Part shown: positions 23,087-61,806 of the stretch, piece by piece
How the letters are laid out: each line of letters begins with the position of its first letter
Numbering within the stretch: the stretch's first letter is position 1
NCBI GenBank assembly: GCA_018296165.2
Contig: JACKQL020000020.1
Coordinates: 1 to 64,000, forward strand
DNA: 64,000 nucleotides
From: Termitomyces sp. T153
Lineage: Eukaryota > Basidiomycota > Agaricomycetes > Agaricales > Lyophyllaceae
Direction of reading: 5' to 3'
Notes under the pieces: generated by a model
Databases searched by the model: none
What the model saw: only the letters and a program-made list of their open reading frames with translations
Told to the model about the DNA's origin: nothing
Position numbers and translations under genes: made by a program

Positions 23087-23908
23087 ACTTGATGATGTTG
23101 TAGAGGCTGATAACGGTCAGAAAGTTTGTTAAGTCGTGGATTTCAGGGGATTTTCAAGAAGTCCTGCCCTGTTTTATGTATTTCATGAAAGTGGGTCAGC
23201 CTCCAAATAATGCGCCACAAGCACTGCCTGGTCTCCTAGTGATACAGTTCGTGTGGGTCAAACTCAGACAGACCAGACTTCGATGACCGCCATGTGTCGT
23301 AGGAAAGGTATGATTACTCGGATGAAGGTAGCGTTGGTAATTGGTTGGGTTAGATTCACGGGTCGCAACGGATTCACGGTGTCACTGATGCCGTCCGCTA
23401 AAGATGGGTTGAGGGCTGTTCTTTAAGACATTGACCCATTTGTACACCGACGCCGCGGCTCAATAAAATATAGGAGGAATTCCTGTGTCTGTGATCCACC
23501 ATTCTCCGCGCGAACATATGTTCTCACTTGTCAAAGGTAAATAATGAAAGAAGAGGAGTAATACTCGATGTATCAATGGCGTGGGTTGATCCTTCATCTG
23601 TCGGCGTCTATCAACTTTTATACTGAAACTTGGACCTATTGACTGCTCGATATGATTGCCAACGCTTAAGCACAACATCGCTTGAACTCTACTTCACCAG
23701 CTCAACCTTAGAGACCCTGCAGATTGACGCCACATCTTTCCCCTACGTAATTGAAACAAAAAAATAGGAGATTTTACCTTTTGCGCATGAGACCCACATT
23801 TTTCCGCGGAGGCCAAAATACATAAAGCTTTCGCCTTTAGACTTCAAACGATATCTCAAAGCCGCAACTTACACTATCATAGTCATCATCATATCAATAT
23901 CTTACGTC
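23087..23908. other. Intergenic upstream of family member A
   Basis: This is non-coding. The last 105 bases hold the promoter block of member A, listed separately. The rest shows no gene or repeat. Confidence 0.5.
23804..23829 (+). promoter_or_regulatory. Family promoter block, copy A
   Basis: CCGCGGAGG is followed by an AT-rich TATA-like core, ACATAAAGCT. The core lies about 90 nt upstream of the start codon at 23909. The same pairing of elements at the same distance stands before members B, C and D, although member A has diverged strongly in its coding sequence. Confidence 0.65.
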
Positions 23909-24799
23909 ATGTCGACCACAATTGTCTTTGAACCACATCCCACCTATCTTTTTCAACACTGCTCTTGCACATCTCTTTATCTACATGTCTTGTTGGTAAG
24001 CCAATACATCTATAATTTAGGGACTTGGGCCTTACCACACATTCAGGGCGTTTTGGCAGTGTCTTTACTCTGGTTTGCGTTGACTTTAGTCTTCGTGAAA
24101 CCTCCCGCCCGTGACATCCCTTCCAGACGTCCTCCGATGTCATTCAAATCCAATTCTTCAATCATGGTAGTGGATAAACTTTCGAAGGACGTTTCTACTA
24201 GAGACACGATATCGACAGGCAACATATTGAAACAAAAATGTAAGATGACCCGCTTCATTCTGTAGCATAAATCCTGACACTGACGATATTCTCGGATAGC
24301 GGAAACAGCGCAACCTATATCTGAAGATATACCTTCCTCCAAGGCGGTGCCGGCAGACCCTTCGGACGGCTTCATCACTTTCAACAACCCCTTCTCCGAT
24401 GTTTCTGCACCGGTCAAAATATCTAGTTCACCCAGCCTCGCACTCTACCCATTTGTTCGTCGTATGTCCTTGCCTAGACACCGCTCCTCATTTTGTATCC
24501 CTGCTTCTAATTCTCGTGCTGTCACCTCTTTGCGCCAACATGCAACCGTGCACCGTCATGGATCCTTGGCTGAAGACAATGAATCTTATCCCTCCTCTCC
24601 TCACGTACCCTCCGGCAAAGTGAGGATATATGCCGATGATGACGACAAGGAAGCAAGGGCGGAATGTACACTGCCTGTCTCGTTATCCAAGTCTACCGCG
24701 AAAAACCCTTTGGCCCCAGATACATCGAGGAAGTTGACGAATCTCAAACGGATAACGAAAAGGGTAAGAAAGTTACTCCGTCACCCTCACAGGTCATAG
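23909..24799 (+). CDS. Unrecognised single-pass membrane protein family, member A
   Basis: I do not recognise this family. I infer three exons (23909-23995, 24047-24239, 24300-24799), encoding 259 aa. Exon 1 is 87 nt, exactly as in members B-D, and intron phases (0, then 1) are the same. Residues 1-29 begin MSTTIVFEP. A hydrophobic stretch, GVLAVSLLWFALTLVFV, straddles the first junction, followed by KPPARDIPSRRP. The body is Ser-rich with RRMSLPRHRS, which parallels RR-x2-LP-x2-R-x-S in B-D. The C-terminus is basic and ends HPHRS, like LHRS or LRRS in the others. The layout suggests a type II or signal-anchored protein with a long basic tail. Member A lies about 9.6 kb from the B-D cluster and is clearly the most diverged copy. 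Confidence 0.72.
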
Positions 24800-26044
24800 C
24801 AACAGAAATAGCTACAGTTCTATAAAGAAACATTCATACTCAAGTTTTCCACTATTCCCTCCAAGTACATTTGCATGTGCAGTTGTACCTATCCAATCAT
24901 TTTGCCAATACAAATAGTCCATCTTTGGTCACGGTTCACACATTCGCTGGCAATCGTTAGATCTGATCCTAAGTGTAAAGTCATGACATCGAGGACCGCC
25001 CGGAATATTGGTGTCGGGAACAAGATTGGGACAGCCGAGAACTAGCCAAAGTACGGTGAGGACAAATTAGGTTCGAGAAGCCGAGTTGAAAAGGGTAAAT
25101 TTTCCGAAAACATCCACATCGCTTGTGGTTCGGGTGATGGACCGTTCGCCCGGCAAACTTGCAACGAAAGTACGATACCCGACGAGGGGTGTATTGTCAG
25201 TGCCAATTTCAGAGATGATGGGTTGGGAATTCGGTCATTAAGTGCACATTGAACAACCTACAAGGGTCTAGAGCATTCCCGATTCTTCACTTGATCGGGT
25301 CGCAGGCGCTCCAGTAAAGGAGCGTGGTCTTGAGCAGAACAAAATCATGCTTGAAAGGAGGTCCGCATCTTGAGCCAGCGTCATTTGCAATCTTGCCTCA
25401 AAGACAGAATCAATTACGAGGGATCCCACGGTGGTGGCAAATTAGAAAATGGCTAGAAAATATAAGCACACCACACAGTAGTAATGTTCTACTTCGTTTA
25501 TGTAGATCGCGATATGGAAGCTGATACCACCCTGAAGGAGTAAACCTCAACTTGTGTACGATACGGGCTTTACTTATCTCAGCATTAATTTCTTAAGCAA
25601 TTTCTACATGTCACGGCGCATCAATCGTGACTGTTCCTTTAATGAGGTCAGGGCGCGGAGTATCAAGCTTCAACTGCTTTGAAATTCATGAGCATAACTG
25701 ACGAGAGTTGAGAGAGAATGACGAGTTACTCAGGAAGTAGAGACAAATTCAAGCAATCACAGGAGGCGCGAAAGATGCATGTTCGGTAACTTATTTGAAA
25801 TAGCTAACACCAGAGAACGAGTCGGGACGGGGATGGAAGAAAGAGAAATTATCCCTGGAAAGACTTTGATATTTTCCTTTTCGTTCAACTGAGCAATTGA
25901 GCGAAAAACGGCTCATTGGAAGCTGTTGCAAGTCCAAAGGAAAATTGTAATCCGCGTGACCATCGCGGCAGTCGCGTCGCTTTAGCCAAGCGAACTCTAT
26001 CGTTCTCCAATAACTTGCTAGCTTGCCAAGTTTCTGGACCAAAG
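24800..26044. other. Intergenic, no gene seen
   Basis: This is a 1.2-kb spacer between family member A and ORC3. I see no convincing frame, repeat or RNA gene. The ORC3 promoter presumably lies near 25900-26040, where several CG-rich words occur. Confidence 0.5.
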
Positions 26045-28794
26045 ATGGTTGAAAACATCAACTTGGACGACTTGAATCAAGTGTGTATGAATATCTCTAA
26101 TCTGTCTTCGTCTTACTCAAACACATAGACAACCTTTACAATTCCTTTTACAGGTTTGCTGAATATACAAAGAACTAGCAGTATGCTTCAGTTCACACAA
26201 GTTGACAGGGGACAGTGAGAACGGCGAAGATATAGAAGTTCCATTTCCACGACCTATATACTCCAAGTATGATCTCCCGGAAGGCGAGAAGCTTCGCATC
26301 GACGTGTATACGGCGGCTTGGGAAAAATGTTTGGATCGTATCAAGGTAGACAATAACCATGAGTCTTCCTGTTTGGATTTTGACTAGCCTTGATTTCTGA
26401 GTCAATTGTGCGTGCTCTACATGCGCCTATCGCATCCGAAATCAAACACGAGATCCATACGTCGTACGACCAACCACTACCTGGCCTACCATATCCAGAA
26501 ATCCCGGTTATCGGCATTACAGGTGTGCCAATTCCTCTTTAAAAGACACAACTTTTTATCATTTTGCAAGATCCTACCTCCAGCTCGACCTTTCTCGACC
26601 AAATTGCGGCTCACACAGATTCATTCGACCTAGAGAAAAGAGATGCAAGCAATACCGTTGCATTTACATCCCATTTGTACCCAAATGACTGCAATAACGT
26701 GATGTCTGCTATGAAGGCTCTGATCAATGGCTTTGTCGACAGGCCACACCTATTGGAAAAAGGTGCGGGAAACTTGATTTCCAGAAAAATGGTGATTGGA
26801 AGTCTTATTCAGGGAAGGGAAGATCCGGTATATCACTCGCCAAATACGATATAGAAACGCTGCTGGCTTGGTATACTGCTATTCGTGATACCTACGGTGC
26901 GTACGATAGCAAACACCGTGTAGTGGCGTTTCGTGACATCGTAAAGATCTTACCGAACAATGCAAACCAAAACTCGTTGTCCTATTTCATGATTTTGAAC
27001 AGCTCGATCCATTAGTTATCCAAGATATCTTCAGCATATCCAGGTGATGATTTGCACTGTTGTTCAAACAGCGCATGGAATGACGGTGCCTTCCAACAGT
27101 CTTTACATTTCACGACTGCCTCTCGTCTTCATACTTGCCCTGTCTTCCCCTGCATCACCATCCTATCTTCATTCCACTTACCCGCGATCGACTTTGGCTC
27201 TGCTTCGCTTTTCCAACTACACCGTGCCTTCTGGAACCAAGGTCTTAGAAGAAGTGTTACTTCGGGTTCGTGTCTCCCACTCAGTTGTAACGTTTGAAAT
27301 GTACTCAGCTACAGATAGACCTTTTTCGACACGAATTTTGAGCCTGATGTTATTATCGGTCCAGGTGTATTAACGTTTATAGCGGATTACTATAATCGAC
27401 ACAACTCATCAGTAGATGCTGTTCTCAACATTCTCCAAGTGAGCACCAGCTACTTCTGTTGCCGCTCGAAGGCTCAATCATGCATTAAGCTTGCTCACTT
27501 GAGACACTTCTCGGGAGAGGTGCTGACCCTTGTCGTCAAATCAACTCCATCCTCCGAGACCCTCTCAGAGGACACATCTCTACCGTTTGTCGAAGAAATG
27601 TTGAGCCGATTACAATCGTTCAACCCGTCCTCAGGAAGGGATCGGTCTATATCATCAATACCGTCACTGATTGCTGCCACCGACGATGCACGAAACTCCA
27701 TGTACTCTCGAGCCCGCCAGATGCGAGTAGGCTTCGGAATTGTCAAGCTCATTCAGGATTTCATGACCAGCCAAGGGTACAAGGGCCTGGATTGGGATAA
27801 TTCCGCTAAAGGAGTTGACATCATAGACGTGATGATTGGCGCTCTGCAGGGTGACCTGAGATCTGATGTGAAGTACCTGGGAACCATGATAAAGTAGGGA
27901 GTTCTTGAACCTTTGATTCTCCTTAAGTTTGATGATCGACATAGGAAGCTAGAGATCTCACAGCTTGGAACGCTCTTCGGTAACCTACATACATTTTATA
28001 ATGCTCTTCCTCTGTATATTCGATCTTCAGAAGAGGAGGCCCGCATGAACGTTATATTGGCAATCAATGCTATACCACCCAGCGGAGATGATGGTGTACC
28101 AGGAGTCAGTCCCCTAGTAGCTGCAAATTTCGCGGGCTGGCTGGTCAAATATATCAAGTAGGCACTTATTATTAGATTCCTGATTTCTTGTTGAATACTC
28201 CAACAGCAATCTCTTGACACCTTTGGAAGATGAGCCTCTCTGGGACATTTGGTACACCGGTGCATCGTCATTTCCATCCCCTGTATGCAGCCTGCCAGTG
28301 TGTTCGTCTTAAGCTAACTTCACATCCAGCTGATCAATCCATCAGTGCGCGCGACTGTAGTCGCGGGATTACTCCATCCCTATGACTTCGCGGAACCGAG
28401 CCGGAAGAAAGATGAAGAACAGACAGATCCCGCGCTCTGGGAGCTTCCGGACACGAGCATCCTATTTCACCGTTATTTGGACAGCGGCAAGATGCTCAAT
28501 ATCTACGACTGGTTCACAGCGTTTCAACAAGAATTGGAAACACAGAGGAAAAACCTCGAAGAGCGAGCGTTAGCCGTTAGGTCGGGACAATCGTCTCCCA
28601 GGAAGCGTGGAGGGAAAGGCAAGATAAAGGAGAAGGAAAAGCCCGAATCAGAAGAAGAGGTAGATAGATGGCAGTTGGAAATTCAGGCGAGGTTTGTGAG
28701 GGCACTGCAAGACCTTGATTATCTTGGTTTCTTGAAGCACACCGGGCGTAAGGCAGATCATGTTCAGCGGGTTGTATTTGACATGCACGACTAG
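26045..28794 (+). CDS. ORC3: Origin recognition complex subunit 3
   Basis: This is a subunit of the six-protein ORC that marks replication origins and loads the MCM helicase. The multi-exon gene begins at 26045 (MVENINLDDLNQ, then a tiny exon TTFTIPFTG) and ends at 28794. Diagnostic blocks follow the ORC3 order. PFPRPIYSKYDLPEGEKLR comes first, then KPKLVVLFHDFEQLDP, an AAA+-derived segment. Next is FEPDVIIGPGVLTFIADYY with NRHNSSVDAVLNILQ and LAHLRHFSGEVLTL. The C-terminus is LGFLKHTGRKADHVQRVVF. An acidic and basic linker (KGKIKEKEKPESEEEVD) precedes the C-terminal winged-helix part. All frame changes coincide with good GT..AG introns, and I see no disruption. The first short exons are the least certain part. 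Confidence 0.92.
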
Positions 28795-29357
28795 TAGGCT
28801 TTAGGAGACATTGAGGTTAATGTGCTTGTCTTTGTTTTAAATCTATCTTTAGGTTGGCGCTGACTGAAATGACGTCGGACTCGTTTGTTGCGCATGCTTT
28901 TCGCCGATCGAGTCGTTACCCTTGCGATCGTGGATGACGACATAACTTCTGATATAGTTCGCTCTATCTACTCTCGCGAAAATGCTCGAAGAATTGTCTT
29001 GATTCCCTGCAGCTGGGCTTCACTGGCACTTCCCAACAGCGAATTCTTAGAATTTTCAAAGATGCAACGTCTTGTGTTCATATAGTCTGGTTAACTAATA
29101 ATATACACACCATGAGATTGATCCTCCGCAAAGGACCACGATCGACTCACCACAGACATGACAGAAACGTTTCTTTGGGGCCCCGATCGTATGTAGGTCA
29201 TCTCTCGTCATGAGTATCCTCTGCTAGGACATGACATCAAGATGACGCGTCAGCCTCTACTGGCAATGCTTATAAACTCTGCGGTGCGAGAAGTAGTCCC
29301 AGCACCCACCTTCTACTCTTCACATCATCACCCCCAGTATCAACTCAATCAAATACA
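28795..29357. other. ORC3 / Con-6 intergenic region
   Basis: There is no supported gene. The region contains the Con-6 core promoter, listed separately. Confidence 0.5.
29271..29276 (+). promoter_or_regulatory. TATA box of the Con-6 gene
   Basis: TATAAA lies 87 nt upstream of the Con-6 start codon. A pyrimidine-rich stretch rich in CAA/TCA words, typical of fungal start regions, runs up to the ATG. Confidence 0.65.
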
Positions 29358-29827
29358 ATGGCCAGCCGTGAGTTTTTTCCCTTAGTCGGTCTGTTGCTGT
29401 CTCAAACCTTCTCGAAGAGGATCAAAGTCAAACTCGCGTCGCCGGCGGTTTGAAGGCTACTATCAACAACCCCAAAGTCTCCGATGAGGCGAAGTCCAGC
29501 GCTCACGAACGTCTTCGTGAAATGGGAACTTCTGCCGACGCCGACGCCAGTCAAAGTATGATTTTTCTCGTCAATCCGTCGAGCTACCTCTAATATTCCC
29601 CCCAACGTAGTCAAGAGGGACATTGGTGAAGATACCAACGACGCCCCCGAAGATCCTGATTCCTCGCTCACTCAGCAACAGCTTGGTGGCTACAAGGCTA
29701 CCCTCAAGAGTACGTTCCACATTCCCTTTTTTACATCTTGATTTACACGTCCTATGTAGACCCAAGAGTTTCTGAGGGTGCTAAGCAGCATGCCCAGGAC
29801 GTTTTAGAGGCCCATGATCAGGTTTAA
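29358..29827 (+). CDS. Conidiation-specific protein 6 family (Con-6)
   Basis: This is a small, hydrophilic, stress- and spore-associated protein with two Con-6 repeats. I infer four exons (29358-29367, 29418-29555, 29611-29709, 29760-29827), giving 104 aa. Repeat 1 reads GGLKATINNPKVSDEAKSSA and repeat 2 GGYKATLKNPRVSEGAKQHA; each is followed by a short helix with L and A. The first coding exon is only 10 nt; the 49-nt intron after it is needed to keep frame. In Neurospora the family is expressed during conidiation. In basidiomycetes copies are common and often stress-induced. The molecular role is not known. Confidence 0.92.
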
Positions 29828-30554
29828 CTGAATACAATAGAGGACAGATTCGGTCGGGACTGTATGATTAGATCAGTTTGTATAAGTGTATGATTAGACC
29901 AGGTCGTCTGAGATTAAATTAGTTTGTATGACGACGCCAGGGTTTGAGTACGTTCGAGAAAAATCGTGAGCCAGTTTTTGTGCGAACGGTTGTTGTGATG
30001 ATGGTTGAGCCGCAAAGAATGAAAGTGTTGCAAACCGGGATTACCTTGTTCTCATGTTTCTTCACAAGTGTGACACATTCGTCAGCATTCTTTGGCTAGA
30101 TTGTAATGAGAGCGGTCATACATGGCTGGATGTGTGTACGCATGGACAAGCGGGGGCAAATACATGCTTGGAATGAGGCATCCATAAACCTATATACGCT
30201 GTAACTTTTAAAAACATGTATGATTTCCCTCGAGTGCTGTGAAAACTGACCTTAAACTCGGCTTACCAGTAGCGATTTGGCAGCCATGATACTAAGTTAC
30301 TGAATTAATATATGGAGCACAGTACCTGTTGAGACCATATGGTGACAGGAGCGTATGTCTTTACTTCTACTTTCACACTCACGTGATCTCGTAGACAATT
30401 TTCTGCCCTGGAGAGTTTACCTGTCATTGATTATGCTATGTACTCATTGTCATTGATTCTGAACCCGCGAACCTCCAGTGTTTGAATCACTAAGGCGATC
30501 TAATCTCTCGGTCTTAATCAGGTCTGTTCCATTCCCTGCGCGCGTGTAGCTGCA
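29828..30554. other. Intergenic, no gene seen
   Basis: This is non-coding DNA downstream of Con-6. Near 30440-30525 (minus strand) there is a weak tRNA-like resemblance that I rejected. Confidence 0.5.
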
Positions 30555-30681
30555 ACAGTACCATGTCAATGCATAGAAATGGTCGAGAACAACATAGCTA
30601 TTAGTGAGCGTAGGTAGATATCAATTTAGTAACTTTAGCTATGTTGTTCTCGACCATTTCTATGCATTGACATGGTACTGT
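30555..30681. repeat. Perfect 46-bp inverted repeat (hairpin-forming)
   Basis: The left arm (30555-30600) and right arm (30636-30681) are perfect reverse complements over 46 bp, around a 35-nt AT-rich loop. If transcribed, this would make a long perfect stem. No terminal duplication is evident next to the arms. It could be a foldback element, a recent inverted duplication or a small-RNA hairpin locus. Confidence 0.95.
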
Positions 30682-30905
30682 GCCCGTGGCCACAAAACTT
30701 CTTGAACACCACCATACTTTCCGATCATTTGAGAAGTCGAGTCTTTCCTACTCGAGTTCACATCTGCACTGATCCTTCCTGTCTCTGTTTTCTGCGGCCT
30801 CTCGACTCTTTTAGTAGAAGTAGAAGCAGATAATGACAGAAAGTTCCGACATTTTTCCGTGATTAATCGGTCAACGATCAATACAAATTCGAGTCACTTA
30901 TTATA

Positions 30906-31485
30906 TGAGACCCCTGAAAATATGGCCGGAGGCCGTTCGCACAATTGGAATTCTTGTCCAGTGTCAGTTGGAACCATTTGTCCATTTTTCGAATGGCATT
31001 CGTCAAAGCGGCGATGCAAAGCCTAATAATTCGATGAGCACCAATTTTCAAGGAAGAGAAGCCCATTAATCTTCTGAGCTGCTGCTTTAGAAACAATTCG
31101 TCCACATATAATCCATTTTTATGCGTGAAAAGATGGAATACGCAATGTTTAGGAGGTATAGGAGCTTCCAGTTGTATACTTACTTGGTGTATTTGCCGAA
31201 CAAATATTATATGAGACATTCAAAAAATAGTGCTATTAGTCGTATCAGCGAGGTTCAAACAAATGGCTCTGAGCAAAAAAAATCAAAAGAAGCTGAGTAC
31301 CATAAAACTACATCATGTCTTGAAGAGCTAGACCGCACAAGAGATGTATCCCGGTCGGAGAACATGGCGGAGTCCATCATGTCCGTTTTGGAGAGCAAAA
31401 TGTCCGTTTTTCCGAACATCATTTTGCCAAAATTTCGCCGAACCTGTCGTTGCGAACGGCCTACGGCCGTATTTTCAGGGGTTCT
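30906..31485. mobile_element. Non-autonomous TIR DNA element (MITE-like)
   Basis: The ends carry imperfect terminal inverted repeats of about 34 bp. Each contains CCCCTGAAAATA, then GGCC, then GGCCGTTCGCA reading inward. Both flanks carry the 8-bp sequence CTTATTAT (30898-30905 and 31486-31493), a likely target-site duplication. The interior of about 580 bp has only short frames without transposase motifs. The 8-bp duplication would suit the hAT superfamily, but the terminal bases are not typical, so I leave it unassigned. Confidence 0.78.
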
Positions 31486-31557
31486 CTTATTATCCGAGCT
31501 ACTTCATCTGATTTTATGTATATATTCAATAGATTGAAGGTTCTGTTCTACCAAATC

Positions 31558-32297
31558 ATGTTGAAGTTCAAATTAGTCCTTGCTGCTGCTATATTATGCC
31601 CCTCCGGTTGGTTATACATCTTCCATAACCTCACGCAATCAACAACACTCATAGATATCAGGGACTTTCGCCACAACTCTCACCTTATTTCGAGCGTTGC
31701 CCGACACCACAACCACGTACCTACCAGTTTACTCTCCTTTGTTGTCTGCGACCATTCAGGGTCCAATTGGCACGGGCACAAACGGGATGACGACGTACCT
31801 GGAGGAAGCCGTAATTAGTGGCTGGGTCGTGGTGGAACCCATTCAAACACAATCTGACGGCAAATTTGTCCCAACCACGACCTTCAGTACCAGAACTCGA
31901 ACAGACATAATGGTTCCTTCAACGGTAACCAGTAAGTGTGCTGTTGGAACCTTCTTATGTGCAATGATAACGGAAATGCACAGACACATTTGCAGCGGAT
32001 GCAACACATTACGTTTATCATGACGACCCCGCGCCATCTGGAGACCCTCAACCCCACCTCGGTGTAGATGAAGACTGCGTCTTTGACGGGAAAAGCGTGA
32101 CATGTGTTTACAGATGGATAGACTCTGAAACTCAGACGCAAACGGGAACTTACCTGGCGACCACGTATCTTGCCACAATTGCAGCAGATTCGAGGGGCAA
32201 CAATGCAATTCTTGGTGCTGGGTTTGCGAAAGGGTCATCCATTGCATGGGGGATTTTTACGGCTGGTGTGCTCTCAGCATGGGTCTTGCTGCTCTGA
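31558..32297 (+). CDS. Small secreted, probably GPI-anchored protein
   Basis: I infer three exons (31558-31606, 31662-31931, 31984-32297), encoding 210 aa. The N-terminus, MLKFKLVLAAAILCPSG, is a signal peptide. The mature part is Thr/Ser-rich (TFATTLTLFRALPDTTTTY, VPTTTFSTRTRTD). It has one visible Cys pair (EDCVFDGKSVTC). The C-terminus is a hydrophobic tail, SSIAWGIFTAGVLSAWVLLL, with small residues just before it, as in a GPI-attachment signal. This layout is common for fungal cell-surface proteins of unknown role. The start codon is only 73 nt from the end of the upstream TIR element. The exact first intron acceptor was chosen for frame. Confidence 0.7.
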
Positions 32298-33509
32298 ACT
32301 TTATCCGCAATGCCTCTGTTACTTGTGTCAGGACCTTCGTCAGACTCGATCATAATATGTTTAAAAGAATCGAACATTGAGACGTGCGCACTGTATAAGA
32401 AAAACAGGCAACCGGAACAGAGCCGGATAGTCAAAAGAAACAGCTAGAGAAAACAAACTCACTCTGATCCATCCCTCCAACTAATTCCCCTACCATCCAA
32501 ACTCTCCCAAATATCTTCTTGATCGAGAGCTCATTCGAGTCTGCGTCTTGCGCGTCATCTGTCAACGAAAAGTAAACCCACATTAGCGCTGATCCAAATC
32601 GTATCAGAAAAACGTGACGTACAATTAAACAACGCCTCTGCTCAGATGAACCCTTTTCTTAGACGTAGGCTAGTTTGGACTTCATATGCTGGCCCGTTCT
32701 CATAACACAGTGCCAGCACCAACCACAGGAAACAGGATCCACGGACGACGAAGGCACCAAACGCCCGGCTCTCTGTCTTCAGCATAGCTTTTCGTGACTA
32801 TCTATCACTGCTGTGAGCTTAGCGTAGTTCACGGTACACTCACGTCCGTCACGTCACCACGGCAATGGACTCACGGCTGTACCCTGCTCAAAGGCGTGTT
32901 GGATGAGCAAGACGATCTGGTTGGAGACCCTTGGCCGGAGAAGGTATGCTACGGCGAGTTTTAATTGCTTTTGACGAGACATGTTGTAGAACCTGATATG
33001 CTAGGCAGTGGTCTTGAGAAGTAACCTCGTTCAATTTATGTTGTGGAATATTTATCAATTACCGCCATCGATTCGCAGGCGACGTGCCTGTTTTAGTTCA
33101 AATCTCTCAAAGGTCCTGGCCTGGTTAGAGTGCATATATGTCGTTCTTAAGTACTAGTCATGCAAGTTCTTCCATCAGTCGAATTCAATGTCAGAAATCT
33201 TAAACTTCGGCAGTTCCTTTGTTGACAGCCTGAACATCCAGTGACACACCCCATTCAGGATACTAATTCTAAGACTAGGCTATGCGATTTGTTGCACAGC
33301 CCACAGGTGGCGTTTGCAACTCCACTGCGCCACACCGTTTGTTCTATACGTCATACCACAGAATAGGAGAGAGTTCCTTTTATGTACATGACCCACTTTG
33401 ATCCCGCGGAGCTAAAATATATAAAGCTAGTCCAATTTTCGTCAGATTAGTCGATCACACTTGAACAACAACCACTATCACAAACCATTACACTCCTATT
33501 GAATCAAAC
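32298..33509. other. Intergenic upstream of family member B
   Basis: There is no supported gene in the first 700 bp. From about 33240 the sequence matches the 5' flanks of members C and D almost base for base, including the GTGGCGTTTGCAACTCCACT block. This marks the duplicated unit. Confidence 0.55.
33404..33428 (+). promoter_or_regulatory. Family promoter block, copy B
   Basis: CCGCGGAG is followed by a TATATAAAGCT core, about 92 nt before the start codon. It is nearly identical to the blocks of C and D and still recognisable in A. Confidence 0.75.
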
Positions 33510-34362
33510 ATGTCTACTGTCGTTCTTGTTGAACAACGTTCACCTTTCATCGTCACGCTCGCTTCCAGAGTTCCGACTTACATACACATCATTATCGTAC
33601 GTCTCACATGCTTAAAGACTCGTATAATCTTATCCCTGATCATATCCGCAGTCATTCTTGGCGGTGTTGTTAATTCAGGCTGTCCCGTCATGGACCACCA
33701 CAAAGCCTCCCGTCCGTGTAATCACTCGAAAGCGTCGTTCTTCATCACTCACATCCAATGCTTCCACTCTCGTAGACCATGACGAATCCAATGCTGCCAA
33801 GGAAGAGATGAACAAGCAAGGTAAGGACATTTATCATCCATGTATCATCTCTTGCAAAATCTTAACTTATACATCCACAGGAAAAGAAAAATGTCATCGC
33901 ATATCTTTTTCCAGCAAAAACCCCCCTTACAAATTAAAATCGGCTGATAAGAAGGCGATTTCACGTAATGAATATATGACGCCTACACTACCACGACGCT
34001 TTACACTTCCTGCGACACGATTCTCAACACATATCGTCACCGCCATGCGTAACCTTACACCTCATCATCGTCTATCTCAGGAAAACTTTGGCTCCTATTT
34101 CCCAAATGAGAAAGTCAACATCGACGCCTATGTGGCCGTCAACACCCTGGTGCAGAACGATATGACAGTCACCGCATCAAAACCGATCATCGTCTCGGTT
34201 ACTCAGTCCGTTAAAGTTGAAAACATTGAAGGGGATAGGGGAAATAACAGTCAGAGAAAATCATACGTTACCATCGAGACCCCAGGGAAGACAATTTCTT
34301 TCAAACGGGCTGCTAGGAGTGCTTCAGTTGTGTTTGGAGACCTTCATCTCCACCGTTCATGA
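33510..34362 (+). CDS. Unrecognised single-pass membrane protein family, member B
   Basis: I infer three exons (33510-33596, 33652-33820, 33881-34362), encoding 245 aa. The N-terminus is MSTVVLVEQRSPFIVTLAS, followed by a hydrophobic anchor made across the first splice (YIHIIISFLAVLLIQAV). KPPVRVITRKRRSSS is the juxtamembrane basic patch. Exon 3 begins GKEKCHRISFSS and carries the family core TPTLPRRFTLPATRFSTH, then LTPHHRLSQEN, an acidic and Val/Ser-rich middle, and a basic C-terminus, FKRAARSASVVFGDLHLHRS. No known domain or catalytic motif is visible. Its intron positions and phases match members A, C and D. B is the most diverged of the three tandem copies. Confidence 0.82.
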
Positions 34363-35392
34363 CTGTTTTTGACTTATAATGTATTAACGTCTACTAACAA
34401 GTCAAATTATCATCATCTATTGATCAACTATCAATTTGCTCTATTCATAAAAACCCCAATGTTCACACACTCGAAGACAAGCGAAGTTGTTTCAAGGTAC
34501 CATGAGTCGAATATTGCGGGTATGTACCCAAGAGCAGGCGTTTATCCTGCATGATGCAGATCGGAATTGTGAATGGCAACAATTGGTGTTGAGAATGTGG
34601 ATGTCATTTGACGACTTACTAAATTTGGGGCTAAGCAATTTGAGCTATGCTTTCAATCTTCTTTAGTGTAGTAAGGAAAATACACTTGTTCACAATGCAA
34701 ATTGAGCGGGCATGTTCTATCCTGCGCGTGTCGAATGAGTTGGCTCTAGAGGGTATCAAATTACATTCAAGCTGCTGCTCTGGAGGACCCACAAGGCAAT
34801 GCGGCAATGACCATTCTAAAAAGGACTTAAGAGCGAGATAGCCTAAACTTACTGCTATCGGTTCCAGGATGCTGGTTTCCCCTCTTAGTCAATGGTGTGT
34901 GCTCAAGACAATGTGGTCACGGATATGTACGAGAACGAAGGGATGGCTGATTTCTGCGAGAATTATATGAAGGCTCCATAATCGATCTGGATCGATTATT
35001 ACAATCAATCTGGTGAGAATACACATACACCGTTGCCAATTCCAAGGGTGCTAGTCATAGCAACGAAGCCTTCCGATGTCAGAAATCTCAAACGATGACT
35101 CCTTTATTACTCGCATAGGTGTCCAGTCACTCATACAACAGATTCTAATATAATACTAGGCTATGCGATTGGTGTTGCACAGCCCACAGGTGGCGTTTGC
35201 AACTCCACTGCGCCACAACGTTTGTTCTATACGTCATACCACAGAATAGGAGAGAGTTCCTTTTATGTACATGACCCACTTTGATCCCGCGGAGGTAAAA
35301 TGTATAAAGCTAGCCCTATTTTCGCCAGTTTTGATAATCACTCCTGAACAACAACCACTATGACAATCTATTGCACTCCTATTGAATCAAAC
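34363..35392. other. Spacer between members B and C
   Basis: There is no gene. From about 34940 onward the sequence is duplicated before member D (from about 37230), marking the start of a tandem unit of about 2.3 kb. Confidence 0.6.
35287..35311 (+). promoter_or_regulatory. Family promoter block, copy C
   Basis: CCGCGGAGG is followed by a TATAAAGCT core (TATAAA at 35303-35308), 90 nt before the ATG. It is identical to the block before member D. Confidence 0.78.
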
Positions 35393-36238
35393 ATGTCTAC
35401 AGTCTTCCTTGTTGAACAACGCCCGCCTTTCATCGTCATGCTCGCTTCGAGAGTTCCGACTTACACACACATCATTATCGTACGTCTCACATGCTTAAAA
35501 ACCCGTATATTCTTATCCTGATCACATCCGCAGTCATTCTTGGCGGTGTTGCTAATTCAGACTTTCCCATCATGGTCCACTCCAAAGCCTCCCGTCCGTG
35601 TAATCACTCGAAAGCGTCGTTCTTCATCACTCACATCCAATGCTTCCACTCTCGTAGACCATGACGTATCCAATGCTGCCAAGGAAGAGATGAACAAGCA
35701 AGGTAAGGACATTTATTGATCATGTATCATCTGTTACAAATTCTTACGTTATACATCCACAGGAAAAGAGAAATGTCATCGTATATCTTTTTCCAGTAAA
35801 AACCCCCTTAACAAATTGAACTCGGCTGTCAAGACGGCAATTTCACGTAGTAAAGCCATGAATCCCACACTACCACGACGCTTGACACTCCCTGCGAGAC
35901 GATTTTCAACGCATATTGTCAGCGCCATGCACAACCTTACACCTCATCATCGTCGTCCTCAGGAAAACTCTAGCTCCTATTTCCTGAATGAGGAGGTCAA
36001 CATTGACACGTCCCTGCTTGACAATACCCTGGTACAGAATGATATGCCAGAGCCCATTGCATCAAAGCCGACCATGGTTATCCAATCCACTCAAGCCGAC
36101 GATGCAGGGCATATGGGAGATCTTCAGCAGAGCGTATCTCACATTGCCATCGTAACTCCAGGGAAGACGAGATCTTTCAAACGGATTGCCAGGAGAGCTA
36201 CAGAGGTCTTTAGAGATCTTCGTCTTCGCCGTTCATGA
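35393..36238 (+). CDS. Unrecognised single-pass membrane protein family, member C
   Basis: I infer three exons (35393-35479, 35534-35702, 35763-36238), encoding 243 aa. It starts MSTVFLVEQRPPFIVMLAS with a hydrophobic anchor ending in SFLAVLLIQTFPSW and then KPPVRVITRKRR. The exon 3 core is NPTLPRRLTLPARRFSTH, followed by LTPHHRRPQEN and a basic tail, FKRIARRATEVFRDLRLRRS. It is open throughout. It differs from member D by scattered substitutions, mainly in the acidic middle segment, and exon and intron lengths are identical. I cannot assign a function. Confidence 0.83.
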
Positions 36239-37691
36239 ATGACAATTAAGCTAAATTACAATGTATTGACGATTATACCCATACACAATGATTAACCCTT
36301 TCTAAGAATTGAAACTGCGATATTTCCACTCAGTGCACGTTTCAATTAAACCTCCAAGTGTACAAGCTCGTGAGCTCTCGATACGGTCGGAAACGGGATT
36401 GGCGACGCGGTCCGCTAAGAAATGCGAATGGGCGCGTGTGTCTAGATTTGTTAGTTAAGCCACTCGAGCCATGATTTCAATCGCCAATCGCCTCCTTTTC
36501 ATCTTTAATAAGAGTTGTACAGCGACTATATATCTGCTGCGTTACGGTCGGAAATGGGATTGTCGACCAGTTCCGCTAAAAATGTGAATGGTCTCGCGTG
36601 TCTAGATCGTGAGTTAAATCTCAATCGCCCATCACTTCCTTTTCATCTTTGATGAGAGTTGTACAACTACTACAGATCTACAGCCTTACGTCCCAAATGT
36701 AAAAAGCAGGTGCCAGTGGACCATGTGCTTGGGACATAGAACACGGGAATCAAGACGTATATTACAAAGCCCGTCTTACACGGCATGGCATCGACAGCAG
36801 AGAAGAGAAGCTTTCTTAGTCTCAAATGCTCTTAGTATGTTGTACATCTGGTATCAATGCCTTCTGAATGCCGGAAGGTCAGCCCTAATACACCAGCCCT
36901 GAACTCCTTGACAGAAATTAACAGAAGCAATGGAAGCCTGGCTATTGCCGGGTCTTGTGCCGTGTTTGCCCAGAGAAGTGGTAAGCTTCAGAAGTCGAGA
37001 ATTTCAACAATAGTCTGACGAGAGGATACCGTGCATTTTACAAGGTTTTCGGTATTGGGCAAAAGAAGAAACTTCAAGGTGGTCGGCGACCTTGATTTAA
37101 TATGCCGTACAGGAATCTCCTAATCTCAGCCATCGATATCCCTCGAAATTGGAAACATGATACCGAGGACTGAAAAGGAAGCTGAAAGAGTCATCGATTT
37201 CACAGAGTCAAGGCTTACTCGGAGAAGTGGATGATCGATTTCTGCTAGGACTATATGAAGGTACCATAATTAATTTGTATTGATTATCATAATCAACCTG
37301 GTGAGAATACACCTACACCGTCGCAAATTCCAAGGGTGCTAGTCATATAAAGTCTTCCATCAGAGTTGAATTCAATGTCAGAAATCTCAAATGATAACCC
37401 CTTTATTGCTCGGATAAGTGTCCAGTCACTCATAACACAGATTCTAATATAATACTAGGCTATGCAATTGATGTTGCACAGCCCACAAGTGGCGTTTGCA
37501 ACTCCACTGCGCCACAACGTTTGTTCTGTACGTCATACCACAGAATAGGAGAGAGTTCCTTTTATGTACATGACCCACTTTGATCCCGCGGAGGTAAAAT
37601 GTATAAAGCTAGCCCTATTTTCGCCAAATTCGACATTCCCTCCTGAACAACAACCATTGTCACAAACCATTGCACTCTCATTGAATCAAAC
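36239..37691. repeat. Duplicated spacer C-D, with internal direct repeats
   Basis: This holds no gene I can support. It includes an internal imperfect direct repeat of about 170 bp (units near 36374-36545 and 36546-36690; both contain GGTCGGAAA, ATGTGAATGG-like and CCTTTTCATCTTT words). About 540 bp further on, up to 37221, it matches 38980-39523 almost exactly. The same blocks recur after member D at an offset of about 2.3 kb. Confidence 0.75.
37586..37610 (+). promoter_or_regulatory. Family promoter block, copy D
   Basis: CCGCGGAGG is followed by a TATAAAGCT core (TATAAA at 37602-37607), 90 nt upstream of the start codon. The block is at the same relative position as in A, B and C. Confidence 0.78.
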
Positions 37692-38537
37692 ATGTCTACT
37701 GTCGTTCTTGTTGAACAACGTCCGCCTTTCATCGTTATGCTCGCTTCCAGAGTCCCAACTTATACACACATCATTATCGTACGTCTCACATGCTTAAAAA
37801 CCCGTATATTCTTATCCTGATCACATCCGCAGTCATTCTTGGCGGTGTTGCTAATTCAGACTTTCCCATCATGGTCCACTCCAAAGCCTCCCGTCCGTGT
37901 AATCACTCGAAAGCGTCGTTCTTCATCACTCACATCCAATGCTTCCACTCTCGTAGACCATGACGTATCCAATGCTGCCAAGGAAGAGATGAACAAGCAA
38001 GGTAAGGACATCTATTGATCATGTATCATCTGTTACAAAATCTTACCTTATACATCCACAGGGAAAGAGAAATGTCATCGCATATCTTTTTCCAGTAAAA
38101 ACCCCCTTAACAAATTGAACTCGGCTGTTAAGACGGCAATCTCACGTAGTAAAGCCATGAATCCCACACTACCACGACGCTTGACACTTCCTGCGAGACG
38201 ATTTTCAACGCATATCGTCAGCGCCATGCACAACCTTACACCTCATCATCGTCGTCCTCAGGAAAACTCTAGCTCCTATTTCCTGAATGAGGAGGTCAAC
38301 ATTGACGCGTCCCTGGCTGACAACTCTCTGGTACAGAATGATATGCCAGAGGCAATCGCATCAAAGCCGACCATGGTTATTCAATGTACTCAAGTCGACG
38401 ATGCAGGGCATAGGGGGGATGTTCAGCAGAGCGAATCTCACATTGTCGTTGTAAGGTCAGGGAAGACGAGATCTTTCAAACGGACTGTCAGGAGAGCTAC
38501 AGCGGTCTTTGGAGATCTTCGTCTTCGCCGTTCATGA
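37692..38537 (+). CDS. Unrecognised single-pass membrane protein family, member D
   Basis: I infer three exons (37692-37778, 37833-38001, 38062-38537), encoding 243 aa. Every exon border lies exactly 2,299 bp from the corresponding border of member C. The protein begins MSTVVLVEQRPPFIVMLAS and shares the membrane anchor, KPPVRVITRKRR, the LPRRLTLPARRFSTH core and the basic LRLRRS end. Substitutions relative to C cluster in the middle (for example DASLADNSLVQ and QSESHIVVVRSGK). The frame is intact. This is a recent tandem duplicate; I infer no function. Confidence 0.83.
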
Positions 38538-39548
38538 ATGTTAATATAACTAACTTACAATGTATTGACGACTTATACCCATACACAACGTTCAACCCTT
38601 TTTAAGAATTCCAACTTCGATGTTTCCACTTAGTACACATTTCAATTAAGTCCCCACGTGCATATGCTTGCGTGCTATCGATTCGGTTGGAAATGAACTT
38701 GTCGACAAAGTCTGCTAAGAAATGTGAATGGGTGTGCGTGTTGAGATTTGTGAGTTTAGTCACTCAAACCATGATTTCAATCACCTATCACCTCCTTTTC
38801 ATCTTTAATGAGAATCGCACAACTACTTGACATCTACTGAGTTACGGTCGGAAATGGGATTGACGACAAGTCCCACTAAGAAATGTGAATGGGCGCGCGA
38901 CGTCACTCAAGCCATGATTTCCATCGCCCATCGCTTCCTTTTCATCTTTGATGAGAGTTGTACAACTACTACAGATCTGCTGAATCACGTCCTAAATGTA
39001 AAAAGCAGGTGCCAGTGGACCATGTGCTTGGGATATAGAACACGGGAATCAAGACGTATATTACAAAGCCCGTCCGACACGCATCGACAGCAGAGAAGAG
39101 AAGCTTTCTTAGTCTCAAATGCTCTTAGTATGTTGTACATCTGGTATCAATGCCTTCTGAATGCCGAGAGGTCAGCCCTGATACACCAGCCCTGAACTCC
39201 TTGACAGAAATTAACAGAAGCAATGGAAGCCTAGCCATTGCCGGGTCTTGTGCCGTGTTTGCCCAAAAAAGTGGTAAGCTTCAGAAGTCGAGAATTTCGA
39301 TAGAGTATGACGAGAGGATACCGTGCATTTTACAAGGTTTTCATTATTGGGCAAAAGAAGAAACTCAAAGGTGGTCGGTGACCTTGATTTAATACGCCGT
39401 ACAGGAGTCTCCAAATCACAGCCATCGATATCCCTCGAAATTGGGAAACATGATACCGAGGACTGAAAAGGAAGCTGAAAGAGTCATCATCATCGATTTC
39501 ACAGAGTTAAGCCTTACTCGGAGAAAAGAAACAAACTCAAGACGCCTC
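38538..39548. repeat. Duplicated 3' flank of member D up to CFAP20
   Basis: This repeats the spacer after member C. The match ends near 39523, about 25 bp from the stop codon of the convergent CFAP20-like gene. I see no independent gene. Confidence 0.7.
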
Positions 39549-40490
39549 CTATTCGTATCCATACAATTCGAACTCCCATGGGACTTTCTGGCCCGGTCCT
39601 CCCTCGCTGAACCATATCCTCCTAAGTCGACAGGTCGCGTAAACACGCACATAGGCCACATGCGAATATGAACCTCCCGGAGCTTCGTTACGCATGCCTC
39701 GGGAGACGCCCTCGGTATCCACGTCTCTCATGAGCTTCGGAGACGAGAAGTAGGGCAGATATGAAGGAAGATTGAGGGTGAGGGTAGACCATGCGGTCAG
39801 TGAGTGGGTGGATGGCGATGGAAACGAGATCGGAAGATGGAGAAGGGGGTATGCATTGGACGACAATCTTAGCCGAGGATGCTTCTACAATAACAACGAT
39901 GTATGTGAGATTATAGATACTACACCGACACGCATCCCTGGATGGCGACACTTGGAACTCGGGCAGGGTCGAAGGACAGGGTGTGGGTACAGAAGATATG
40001 AGATCAGAGAAGATGGGAAACACACCTGGAAGGTAGACAGCCGCAAGATTCCCAGCCGCGCAGATTGATCGACAAGACCGACTTCGAGTGCCCACTCCTT
40101 GTCTAGATTCCGCACCTGGATGTGCATCCATGGATGCTTGATTCCAAGGTCAGACGATTTTTCACGTCGGCCATCTAAGTGCGAAGGCCCGTCGACAGGG
40201 GGGCTCTGGATAAAGGTGGTCCGAATCGTAGGCGATTGGATGTGAAGCACGGTTTGATCCAATGAATAGTCGGTTCCCGCGTTAGTTGGAGGCGAGATGA
40301 GCTCCGAAGGGGGTTTGGGTTTGGGCTGCGATAGTTGGTCATGTAGGAAATGAATGCACGAGTCTACTGGCAAAGAAGTGTCTACACTCTTTCTAAACAG
40401 CTGGAGAGGCTCGGAGTTTGTAGATGAAAACAATGAGACCGTCGATGTCTGTACAGATGGTAAAAACATTGCAATAATGAAAGTTGACAT
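39549..40490 (-). CDS. CFAP20-like protein (CFA20/DUF667 domain)
   Basis: CFAP20 is a doublet-microtubule inner-junction protein of cilia; family members also occur outside cilia. I infer two exons (40490-40026 and 39884-39549) with a 141-nt intron, giving 266 aa against 193 in human CFAP20. Matching blocks, in order, are FLPSVQTSTVSLFSSTNSEP, LQLF, IQSPTIRTTFIQSP, LGIKHPWMHIQVRNLDKEW followed by ALEVGLVDQ, and the C-terminal VRVYATCRLRRIWF with PWEFELY. A Pro/Ser-rich insert separates the first and second parts. A second in-frame ATG (codon 8) may be the true start. A decayed inverted copy lies at 54.9-55.7 kb. The gene is intact. Confidence 0.87.
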
Positions 40491-43400
40491 TTTCCATCAA
40501 CGCGTTTGCCAAACAACCACATGTGCCGAATACCGCCGAACACGGGGAAAAAACAAACACTTGTGCTACATAATACTTCTCGTTACCACTTCACCCTCGG
40601 ATCCAATGCAGAATCACTCAAACATATGCTAGCCAGCTCCACCTCCAGGAATATTCATTCGAACCCGAACAGTCGGATAAAAGAAATATCTCACGGGCGC
40701 AGCCCTCGGACCTCGAGGCTGGGTTGCAGCAGAAAACCATACCGCAAAAAGCGGGCTTCTTCAAACGATCCACGGAAGTTGATCAGCCACACATTAACGC
40801 GCGATGCTCACTTGTGCGTGCGTGTGGTGTCTCATATTCCAGCTCTAAGCCAGCCGCGAGTCGTCTGGTCTCAGGTACTCTGTTATCCTCGTGTCCCAGG
40901 GCCGGTGATCTCCTCTTTCTCGTACCGAGTAAGCCGTACCCCCCCCTCTTCTCTCAAGCATTCTACTCGTCACAATGACTAGCCCCCCGGTGGATGGATG
41001 GCTTATCCGCTCACTCCTATTCCAGGCTAGTTCAGTCCAGGTGACTAATTAGAGCTACTAGCAGGCTAGTAAGTATACCCATGGCTCAAATCCCACACAC
41101 ACAAACATAGGCGCGCATCAAAAAAGAATCATGCGCCGCCCCCCCACCCCATCCTTGCTCCGCTTTAACGCCGTTTCAAAATATAAGAATTTTCATATTA
41201 ATGGCTTCTTTTGGTGCCTCGTGTCCGTATTCGCTGTCGTTCCTGTAATGTATGGAGTCTTCTCCGAATTGTCCGGGTGGGGGACTCTCTCTCTCTCTCT
41301 TCGAACATCACGAACCATGACAAAAATCCCGATAACTCTGCCTCGAGGCTAACCTGTCACCTGGAACAAAGCTATAATAATTCTTTCTCCGCGCTGCACT
41401 CGAGGTGTCCTTCGAGACTTGTACATGTACCGACAGCTTGGCTACGGTTTCTATGTGGATTATATGATAAAGCTGTCTATCTATCTATCTATCTCTGATA
41501 TGCTTCGAATCTCCCCTTGAAACCACCATCAATATCATTCGAATTCGAAGTCACCACCAGTATATACGAAATTGAGCCTACGAACGCCCGGCCGAGTATC
41601 AAAGAAACAAATCAATCGACCGTAGAACTCTGACTGACCCCACCTGTTTCGAGCCGACGAAGTTCAGCTCGCTACCCAGATTCTATCCTACTCTTTTTTT
41701 TTCGCCCATCAAATCGTCTCACAACTCGATCTTCAGCACCCAGCGTGTAGGTGTGTGTGTGGGTATAAGCACGTACAAGGCCAAACAATAAGAAGACAGG
41801 GTACGAACTCAGATCCACTCCTTCCATCATCCATCATCCATCTTCTTCGCTTGACACGACATGACAACGAACCTCAAGCTCGCCGTCGGCCCCACTCCCT
41901 CTCCCTCTCCCTGTTCTTTTTTTTCTATTTTTTTTTTCTTTTTCACGCATGTAGCTTTCCACGGCATTTAACAGTCAACACCGATATGAACGACCTTACG
42001 CTTACGGTTACGGTTACGAATCCAGAGTGCGCGGCCGTACGTACCTATGGCTTCGTCTTCGTCTTCGTCTTCGTTGAGCTAGTAGCTTAGCTTAGCTTAG
42101 CAAGCATGAGCATGAGCATAAGCATGAGCATGAGCATACTCGGCATAGCGTACATGGCCCGCGAGGTATACCACACCCACGTAGGTGGTGGTGTTCTTGA
42201 TATGGAGGGATGGACAGCTCCGAGTCGGAGGATGGGATACGGGGTTTAGGAGCTCGGAAGAATTTTTTTTCTTGTGGAAAAGAGGAGGGTTCGACTGATT
42301 GAGTGACTGACTGACTCGACGAGCGCGAGCTTCGACGGGGTATTGGTTATCTTTATTCTTTATTCTTTATCAAAAGGTTCACTGGAGACTTTTTGGTTTG
42401 GGCTTCTACATGCGATTCTAGAGATTGAATAGATGGATGGATGGATGGATGGATGGATGGATTAACCCCCGTGTATGTGAAATTTCAATTTCTACTTCTA
42501 CGAGCTGCTGGGGTTGGTAAAGATTGGTGTATTGGTTTGCAAGCTCGGTTGTACGTTATACACTGTACTTGCCCCACCCACCTGGATCCCATCCATCCTT
42601 AACTTCTCCACTCTCCGATTCTTGGCGTTGATGTGATGTGATGTGATGACGAGGGTCATCGATGCCTTTGTGTCGGACTGTGCATGATGGATTTGGCATG
42701 TGGACTAGAAATCGAAAACCAGAGACCAGAAACCAGAAACCAAAAAAAAAGAAAACACATAAAATTCAGAATGAATAAAGCATGATATATGATAAGTTTC
42801 GACATGCAGTTCTCAGTTCTCAGTTCTCAGTTCTATTCATCCATTCATCCATCCATCCACAGTCCTACACAAACACCGGCACCCCCCGTCCTTCTGCCCG
42901 CCTACGCACTACGCATACGCATACACAACCCCGCGTCCACACTCTGATTCTGAATTCCGACTACATACACATACACATGCACATACGAACGGCACCTCGA
43001 CCCCGAAATTTGCGTTGAACGTCCATCGTCCATCGTCCATCGTCCGTTCATCCTACCATCCCCATCGTGCATCCTTAATCGCCCATCGCCCATCGCCCAT
43101 CGTCCGTTCATCGTTTCGATCACAACTCACAACTCACAACTCATCTCGTGACCCCCCCCCACGTTCCGGCGAATTATTTTCCCCCACACGAACCCCAGAG
43201 GCTTCGACTCCTATTTCGGTTCCCCCCCGCACTTGGGTTGGGTCGGTTGGGGTCGGTTGGGTTGGGTTGGGTTGGGTTGGGTTGGGTTGTGTGTGCGTGT
43301 GTGGTTTGGACGGAGCGTTGTCGTTAGCGTTAGTGTATCGCCTTTATCTGTGAGTTGGGTATGTAGAGTTGGATCATGTGTGTGAGCGCATGCCTCTTTT

Positions 43401-60700: not shown

Positions 60701-61806
60701 CGGTGAAGGACCGACCCCAAAGGTTATTGATATCGGGTGCACCCAAAGGGTGCAAAAAGGCTGAAGAAGCTAAAAAACACAATGAGAAAGTGGAGAAGCT
60801 GGTAAGAGACAATGCACACTTGCTAGTGTATTCCGATGGGTCCATGCATGGGGAAGGGGATGGGACATGCAGGTCGACTGGCTGGGGGATAGTCGGATAC
60901 CACCTAGGAACAGAAGTCTTTGTGGATAAAGGCGGATTGGGACATAACGCCAAGGTATATGATGCGGAACTGATGGGCATTGCCAGGGCAGTCAAAGCAG
61001 CTAAGGAATATGCAGACCAACATGAATGGATCAAACATGTACACGTCTATGCTGACAACACAGCGGCGGTGACGTCGGCATACGAACCCAAACCCCGACC
61101 AGGCCAACTCCAGATGATAAGAACCACGTGTACAGTTGACAACTTCCTCAACCAGGATGAGGAGAGAACGGTAAGCATAGAATGGTGCTCCGGTCACAAG
61201 GACGTGGCCGGGAACAAGAGGGCCGATGAGGAGGCTAAGGACGGAGCCGAAATAAGGGCACATGACCACACAACACTAACAAACGCCAAGAGGATGGTAA
61301 AGGAGAGGGCCCTAGAGAAGTGGTCAGGCAACTGGCTAAAGACACCACCATCAGGAGGGTTCGCGGTTGCTAACAGACTGAAACCCCGGTGGAAACCGAG
61401 GGAACACGTCCAACATACACCACGGGAAGTATTCAGCAGACTAACTCAATGCAGGACTAAACACACATTTGTCGGCGAGTACTATGCAAGATTTGTGCCT
61501 GACAAAACAACTAGATGCACATGCGGAATCTGACCCCAAACTCGGGAACATATCATAAGGGAATGCCCCAGGTACTATGAATATAGAGGCATACTAAAGG
61601 AAGCGGACGCCCAGATGGAACTGGGGACACTGCTAGGCACGAAGAAGGGACTGGAGGCAGTGACAAAGTTCCTAGCCAAGATGGGCGCCTTCACCAAAAC
61701 GGGGAATAGACATGAACGGAAACCGAGACCGGAAATAGACGATGAAGAAAACGAAGACACAGAGGGAAGAGGGTGGACGCAGATGGAGGAAGAAGACAGG
61801 GAGTAA
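57730..61806 (+). pseudogene. LINE ORF2: endonuclease, reverse transcriptase, RNase H, with four in-frame stops
   Basis: A single frame spans 4,077 bp with no frameshift but stops at 58132, 60028, 60307 and 61531. The endonuclease part shows SGDWNQHHPKW and GSDHFALKW; the usual QEP glutamate position reads TGP. The reverse transcriptase has KKAPGV, LTFDISGFFDNVNHARL and YMYIDDGTL. The motif usually read QGSPLSP appears as QGLPVLP. RNase H keeps YSDGS, DAELMGI, YADNTAAV and GNKRADEEAK. A final Cys/His region, CTCGI then PQTREHIIRECPRY, closes the protein. Two of the stops and both Ser-to-Leu changes are explained by single C-to-T changes at CpG. Confidence 0.96.

Follow-up and report, generated by a model that had tools for sequence, protein, structure and literature searches.

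An undescribed, putatively membrane-tethered protein family of Termitomyces and its close relatives, and a promoter block common to five of its genes

Two described systems come closest to the proteins considered here. Ist2, the tether of the cortical endoplasmic reticulum (ER) in yeast, is anchored in the ER and carries, beyond an unstructured linker, a lysine-rich end that binds PI(4,5)P2 (PMC7387695); the involvement of a basic cluster and an amphipathic helix is named in the title of a reference cited in that article. In TASK-1, phosphorylation of a cytosolic site controls the binding of 14-3-3 and COPI, and hence traffic to the surface (PMC4760375). The present analysis concerns a stretch of 64,000 nt from Termitomyces sp. 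T153 (assembly GCA_018296165.2, contig JACKQL020000020.1, positions 1 to 64,000 of the forward strand; hereafter the window), which carries four related genes, A, B, C and D; a fifth, E, lies elsewhere in the genome. By sequence, A-E form an apparently undescribed orphan family, so far met only in termite-farmed mushrooms and their close relatives. An earlier reading of the same DNA (the original prediction) had described A-D, and to it we add the fifth member, kin outside Termitomyces, a mosaic history, the common promoter, and the serine or threonine within a conserved RR core.

Each of the four genes has three exons on the + strand, with spans that open on the ATG (A 23909-24799, B 33510-34362, C 35393-36238, D 37692-38537) and products of 259, 245, 243 and 243 amino acids, respectively. 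The gene models, re-derived from the sequence, are as follows:

23909-23995, + strand, gene A exon 1 (87 nt)
24047-24239, + strand, gene A exon 2
24300-24799, + strand, gene A exon 3 (RRMSLP core, RHGSL, basic tail; acceptor set with the help of relatives)
33510-33596, + strand, gene B exon 1 (87 nt)
33652-33820, + strand, gene B exon 2
33881-34362, + strand, gene B exon 3 (RRFTLP core)
35393-35479, + strand, gene C exon 1 (87 nt)
35534-35702, + strand, gene C exon 2
35763-36238, + strand, gene C exon 3 (RRLTLP core)
37692-37778, + strand, gene D exon 1 (87 nt)
37833-38001, + strand, gene D exon 2
38062-38537, + strand, gene D exon 3 (RRLTLP core)
34941-39488, + strand, C unit and D unit, tandem copies of about 2.3 kb each, intergenic DNA included (repeat comparison)

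The first intron is in phase 0 (51-55 nt) and the second in phase 1 (60 nt), and all are bounded by GT and AG, so that the intron phases originally proposed were recovered. The borders are based on open frames, conserved borders and annotated relatives. For gene A, the acceptor at 24299 was chosen over that at 24308 because the relatives P0006 and P0007 read KSET there. Five Termitomyces models (P0001-P0005) span both splice points in register with A-D, and are gap-free at these points. RNA-seq was fed into the T. cryptogamus v2.0 gene models (PMC10021994), the release to which the H2248 locus tags presumably belong.

The fifth member was found by searching the genome itself (72.37 Mb, 307 contigs) with A and D. 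Gene E encodes 258 amino acids at C16:18778-19661, and its exons are:

C16:18778-18861, gene E exon 1 (84 nt)
C16:18913-19108, gene E exon 2
C16:19165-19661, gene E exon 3

Weak matches on C28 (E 0.16) and C13 (E 0.38) were taken as chance. Only the best candidates were scored, and five members is therefore a lower bound. Thus A-D are true paralogues, as the original prediction had held, but its count of four falls short of the at least five copies in the genome, and the 87-nt first exon, correct for A-D, is not a rule for the family. Kin of E and A (P0008 and P0007) and the B/C/D-type P0001 bear the neighbouring tags H2248_012008, 012029 and 012034; since these tags lie close together, the starts of contigs C16 and C20 may adjoin, which would place A-E in a single neighbourhood.

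Gene A is distant from the other three, although its relatedness to them is far above chance. Its local alignment scores against B, C and D are 110, 123 and 126, with shuffled means of 36.6-38.4 (standard deviation 5.7-6.9), and none of 300 shuffles reached the observed score for any pair. At the DNA level, a search with B finds C at 83% and D at 84% identity, and C and D are themselves tandem copies, in which the duplicated unit of about 2.3 kb includes the intergenic DNA.

Pairwise comparisons show the family to be under purifying selection, although they do not establish selection on each individual copy. The ratios of nonsynonymous to synonymous divergence (dN/dS) by the NG86 method are 0.26 for C/D, 0.43 for B/C, 0.42 for B/D and 0.24 for A/E, and by the YN00 method 0.29, 0.54, 0.53 and 0.30, respectively; the B/C/D pairs thus stay well away from 1, as expected if selection acts on the intact frames. 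Synonymous differences exceed nonsynonymous ones in proportion for all four pairs (Fisher P 4.3e-5 for C/D, 1.9e-5 for B/C, 9.6e-6 for B/D and 6.1e-17 for A/E). The ratios for A-B and A-D are given no weight, since synonymous sites are saturated there (dS ∼1.8-1.9). Between C and D there are no indels in the coding sequence and introns, as against two in the 5' flank and eight in the 3' flank, and the coding gaps of B relative to C or D are 3, 6 and 3 nt. The first 98 codons of C/D are the most constrained part (1 nonsynonymous versus 10 synonymous differences), and the remainder is less so (18.5 versus 12.5, P 0.03).

Three overlapping protein searches of 5.77 billion sequences returned 19 distinct relatives in total (5 of 411 candidates at E≤1; 8 of 723 at E≤10; and, in a profile search, 14 of 3712 at E≤10). 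The 14 proteins of the profile search, some of which are fragments, belong to the family with a weakest E of 2.5e-17. By name, the 19 comprise 12 from Termitomyces, two from Tephrocybe rancida, one from Tephrocybe sp., one from Arthromyces matolae, two from Blastosporella zonata and one unnamed ENA entry, so that all 18 named relatives are from the Lyophyllaceae, to which Termitomyces, Tephrocybe, Arthromyces and Blastosporella belong. Gene A is nearly identical to a protein of Termitomyces sp. Mn162 (99% identity over 74% of the query). These searches rely on shared 5-residue words, by which more distant kin elsewhere could be missed. On these data the family is lineage-specific, as originally claimed, with a known range wider than Termitomyces yet narrow.

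No curated-domain or solved-structure relative was found for the family, which bears out the earlier statement that no known domain was recognised. Pfam searches with A, B, D and 18 of the 19 relatives gave no match save noise at E≥0.035; a match of one member to an unrelated bacterial model (E 0.0068, Pfam and NCBIfam) was taken as noise, and the single match of a PDB profile search (E 0.61) was judged to be chance. We found no paper with six locus tags of the family, nor a title on the family among the best-ranked ones listed, but most subscription journals lie outside the coverage, and a description may therefore be in print.

In a tree of 21 rows (aligned family members, excluding the fragments P0006, P0018 and P0019), the eight B/C/D-type rows form one clade (100/100) on a long stem of 2.03 changes per column, and the seven A-type Termitomyces rows form a separate clade (100/99). 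The six rows outside these clades do not come together as one resolved group, and Arthromyces is a long branch of unsure position. Where B/C/D-type proteins carry a name, it is from Termitomyces only; P0018, the ENA fragment with no species name, is of B/C/D type by the look of its core. Identity between B/C/D and the Mi166 copies is 84-88% in columns 1-40, 77% in columns 41-60 and 79% in the RR-core block, and is 27-35% in columns 161-240.

The history of the B/C/D branch also appears to be mosaic. The T. cryptogamus gene H2248_012034 has a B-like start and is D-like afterwards: of the 62 sites that set B apart from both C and D, the first eight carry the B state, while 52 of the other 54 carry the D/C state (two are unassigned). 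At the same sites, the orthologue of B in Mn162 has the B state 57 times, the D state four times and neither once. All three Mi166 copies, at the first eight sites, have four D states, two B states and two that are neither. Because the Mi166 copies match D at those four sites, the B state there is probably derived, and exchange between copies is the simpler account of the mosaic; an assembly error in T. cryptogamus could also have produced it. Within the window, B shares 81-99% identity with C or D between the promoter (33284) and the middle of exon 3 (34131), and 64-78% from there to the gene end; for B/C, dS rises from 0.17 over the first 98 codons to 0.50 beyond. The Termitomyces B/C/D lineage has diverged strongly and been copied in tandem, with probable exchange that keeps the promoter, anchor and first half alike and leaves the tails to diverge.

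A block of about 70 nt is alignable 5' of A, E and B-D, and contains a core pair of short elements, GACCCAC and CCGCGGAG:

23763-23829, + strand, promoter block of A (conserved block), with GACCCAC-N6-CCGCGGAG at 23791-23811 and a TATA-like stretch
33390-33411, + strand, promoter pair of B, GACCCAC-N7-CCGCGGAG (pattern search)
35273-35294, + strand, promoter pair of C (pattern search)
37572-37593, + strand, promoter pair of D (pattern search)

Local scores for the block are 45-54 (A/B, A/D, E/B and E/D), with 26-30 as the highest reached by 500 base shuffles of each pair, while the introns of A and B are no more similar than shuffles (175 and 143 of 500 scored as high). A genome-wide search for the core pair, GACCCAC-N6/7-CCGCGGAG, as GACCCACN{3,10}CCGCGGAG, gave five matches and no more, each of them 111-120 nt 5' of the ATG of a different member of A-E; the reversed control gave three. 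The pattern was derived from A-E themselves, and the result is therefore that no exact match occurs elsewhere. A looser form with three mismatches gave 84 matches (11 reversed), of which three are the exact ones of B, C and D; most of the others are GACCAAG..CGCGGTG and near forms, which we took to be a dispersed repeat. Selection may have preserved the block since a common ancestor, or it may be a regulatory code private to these genes; either would imply a function. Its GCGGAG part fits a putative CreA/Mig1-like site.

The proteins are predicted to have one membrane helix and little other structure. AlphaFold models place helices at residues 21-45 and 245-252 of P0012 (a Tephrocybe rancida relative of A; 16 rows) and at 23-44 and 225-235 of P0001 (B/C/D-type; 18 rows). 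In both models only the first is a confident membrane helix, in keeping with the single-pass protein originally proposed, and it is separated from the C-terminal helix by 180-199 residues without predicted structure. In all 20 rows compared, the most hydrophobic 19-residue segment is found close to the N-terminus, and lysine and arginine are richer on the C-terminal side of the helix than on the N-terminal side in 19 of these, with one tie. By this distribution the tail, which is net basic as the original prediction stated, is probably cytosolic; of the two placements left open there, the positive-inside rule favours the cytosolic over the lumenal. The MST start, the hydrophobic segment across the first splice and KPPxR are all present in A-D, and for the family as a whole a KPP/KPS-R border follows the anchor in 21 of 21 covering rows (strictly KPPxR in 17). 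The RR-x2-LP-x2-R-x-S core and the HRS or RRS ends likewise hold for A-D, but in the wider family the LP and these endings are not conserved, and what is kept is RR[MLF][S/T], present in all 23 rows that include the region (the fragment P0019 lacks it). The longer form RRx[S/T]xP, in which S and T interchange, is found in 22 of the 23. Among the rows that include the RHGSL region (all but P0019), the motif is present in 13 of the 14 outside the B/C/D type and absent from all nine B/C/D-type ones; the one outlier, P0007, has a different annotated C-terminus. The C-terminal 28 residues form a basic, amphipathic segment (mean z 1.98, range 0.55-4.00, in the 22 rows left once P0007 and P0019 were dropped).

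The C-terminus of P0007, the T. cryptogamus orthologue of A, matches an open stretch past the stop of A, at 24860-25045. Alternative splicing, a changed gene and a wrong model are candidate explanations.

RRx[S/T] is the consensus of PKA, and RRx[S/T]xP has the shape of a mode-1 14-3-3 site. The core looks like a kinase or 14-3-3 site in that S and T replace each other at one position, preceded by a hydrophobic residue and, before that, by an RR that never varies; the xP suits 14-3-3. The reading we favour, and hold only tentatively, is that A-E are membrane-tethered, phosphorylation-switched adaptors or tethers with a cytosolic tail. A short non-cytosolic N-terminus would lead into the one membrane helix (approximately residues 21-45), and the basic KPPxR border would be followed by a long cytosolic, probably disordered linker that carries the invariant basophilic site RR[MLF][S/T], nearly always with xP after it. 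The short basic amphipathic C-terminal helix may touch an acidic membrane; placed at the end of a long linker, it would be well suited to contact lipids, like the end of Ist2. Phosphorylation of RRxS/T and docking of 14-3-3 would then switch trafficking or contact on and off. Several observations weigh against this proposal. The confidence of the models is low overall (mean predicted local distance difference test scores of 53.6 for P0012 and 53.5 for P0001), the hydrophobic stretch of the B/C/D types is only moderate (Kyte-Doolittle 1.64-2.17), and the divergent C-terminus of P0007 has a second such stretch (1.61). The relative P0009 is without the xP, and RRx[S/T] alone is common by chance (at least one in 25% of shuffles for A), so that the argument rests on conservation. 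Amphipathicity is low in B, P0002, P0004 and P0015 (z 0.55-0.78) and, the rows being related, is without independent replication.

Much of the same anatomy would serve a tether with no phosphorylation switch, in which an ER anchor, a disordered linker and a basic amphipathic C-terminus bridge the ER and the plasma membrane as Ist2 is described to do (ER anchor, unstructured linker, lysine-rich PI(4,5)P2-binding end; PMC7387695), and the RR core makes some other contact, e.g., for COPI retrieval. The anchor, the unstructured 180-199 residues and the basic amphipathic end all agree with it; we nevertheless consider it doubtful, since it leaves the conserved S/T and P of the core unexplained, and since Ist2 is a multi-pass TMEM16 homologue, whereas no such domain was found in the Pfam searches of A, B, D and 18 of the 19 relatives. 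Somewhat less probable still is a secreted or lumenal protein, in which the hydrophobic stretch would be a signal peptide or a type II anchor, the tail would lie outside, and the invariant RR and the RKRR after the anchor would be Kex2-type processing sites that release basic peptides. Dibasic sites are indeed common in the B/C/D types (RKRR, RR, ARR, VRR), the RR is invariant in all 23 covering rows, and a net basic tail fits a secreted basic peptide. On the other hand, the distribution of lysine and arginine predicts a cytosolic tail in 19 of 20 rows, the predicted helix of 22-25 residues after about 20 others is long for a signal peptide, and the dibasic site adjacent to the anchor is lost in several A-type kin; moreover, Kex2 needs no S/T and P fixed after RR, yet both are kept.

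The copies might also be transient, neutral or selfish by-products of chance duplication whose products do little. The fast divergence of the last third (27-35% identity in columns 161-240) and the intergenic DNA carried along in the tandem units would fit, but this account is very unlikely given the excess of synonymous differences in all four pairs (C/D, B/C, B/D, A/E), the zero coding indels between C and D as compared with two (5') and eight (3') in the flanks, the 3-, 6- and 3-nt coding gaps of B relative to C or D, and a promoter block that A and B share despite introns too different to align.

The rest of the window holds a variety of features. Between A and B lies a gene at 26045-28794 (start read by eye) with an ORC winged-helix C-terminal domain in frame at 28318-28794 (E 7.8e-42), probably ORC3, followed by a Con-6 conidiation protein at 29358-29827 (two matched stretches, E 5e-34, spliced by eye). 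An inverted repeat with perfect 46-nt arms around a 35-nt spacer (30555-30681) stands between Con-6 and B, and has only two partial 41-nt matches elsewhere in the genome, on C3 and C25. A CFA20 domain frame on the minus strand (39888-40496, E 8.7e-11) adjoins D; proteins with this domain are mainly those of cilia. Frames for an endonuclease, a reverse transcriptase and RNase H at 58135-61530 make up an element like those without long terminal repeats (non-LTR). Within the window, Rfam gave no match at gathering scores, and no tRNA was found.

To our knowledge, few genes are known that mark the step from free-living mushroom to termite crop, and this family is a testable candidate. Its relatives Tephrocybe, Arthromyces and Blastosporella, which live without termites, have one or two known copies each, and Termitomyces is the only named source of the strongly changed tandem branch. 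At the far end of what these data suggest, and improbable as a whole, B/C/D would be a Termitomyces invention tied to termite life: a fast-changing membrane switch protein split from an ordinary Lyophyllaceae gene and diversified as a cassette, in which gene conversion holds the promoter, anchor and core while the tail varies, with A-E forming a regulon of their own through a private cis-element. The family may still prove to be an ordinary lineage-specific one. The common promoter offers a handle on the timing of its expression.

With respect to known systems, the nearest in sequence are hypothetical proteins of the Lyophyllaceae (e.g., H2248_012034, C0989_007266, C0995_000537/539/542, C0995_003129 and DXG01_000292/296), which by sequence are members of the family and resemble A-E in length class, anchor, KPP border and RR core, but are annotated only as hypothetical proteins. 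The likeness to Ist2, the yeast cortical-ER tether, is in anatomy: a membrane anchor, a long unstructured linker and a basic lipid-binding C-terminus. Ist2, however, is a multi-pass TMEM16 protein, whereas A-E have one predicted helix, no detected homology to it and no TMEM16 (anoctamin) transmembrane domain in the Pfam searches, and are not members of that family. The likeness to the 14-3-3 trafficking control region of TASK-1 and TASK-3 is that of a cytosolic phospho-site governing traffic; in those channels the site is at the very end of the C-terminus, homology with A-E is not claimed, and the binding of 14-3-3 by A-E is a prediction.

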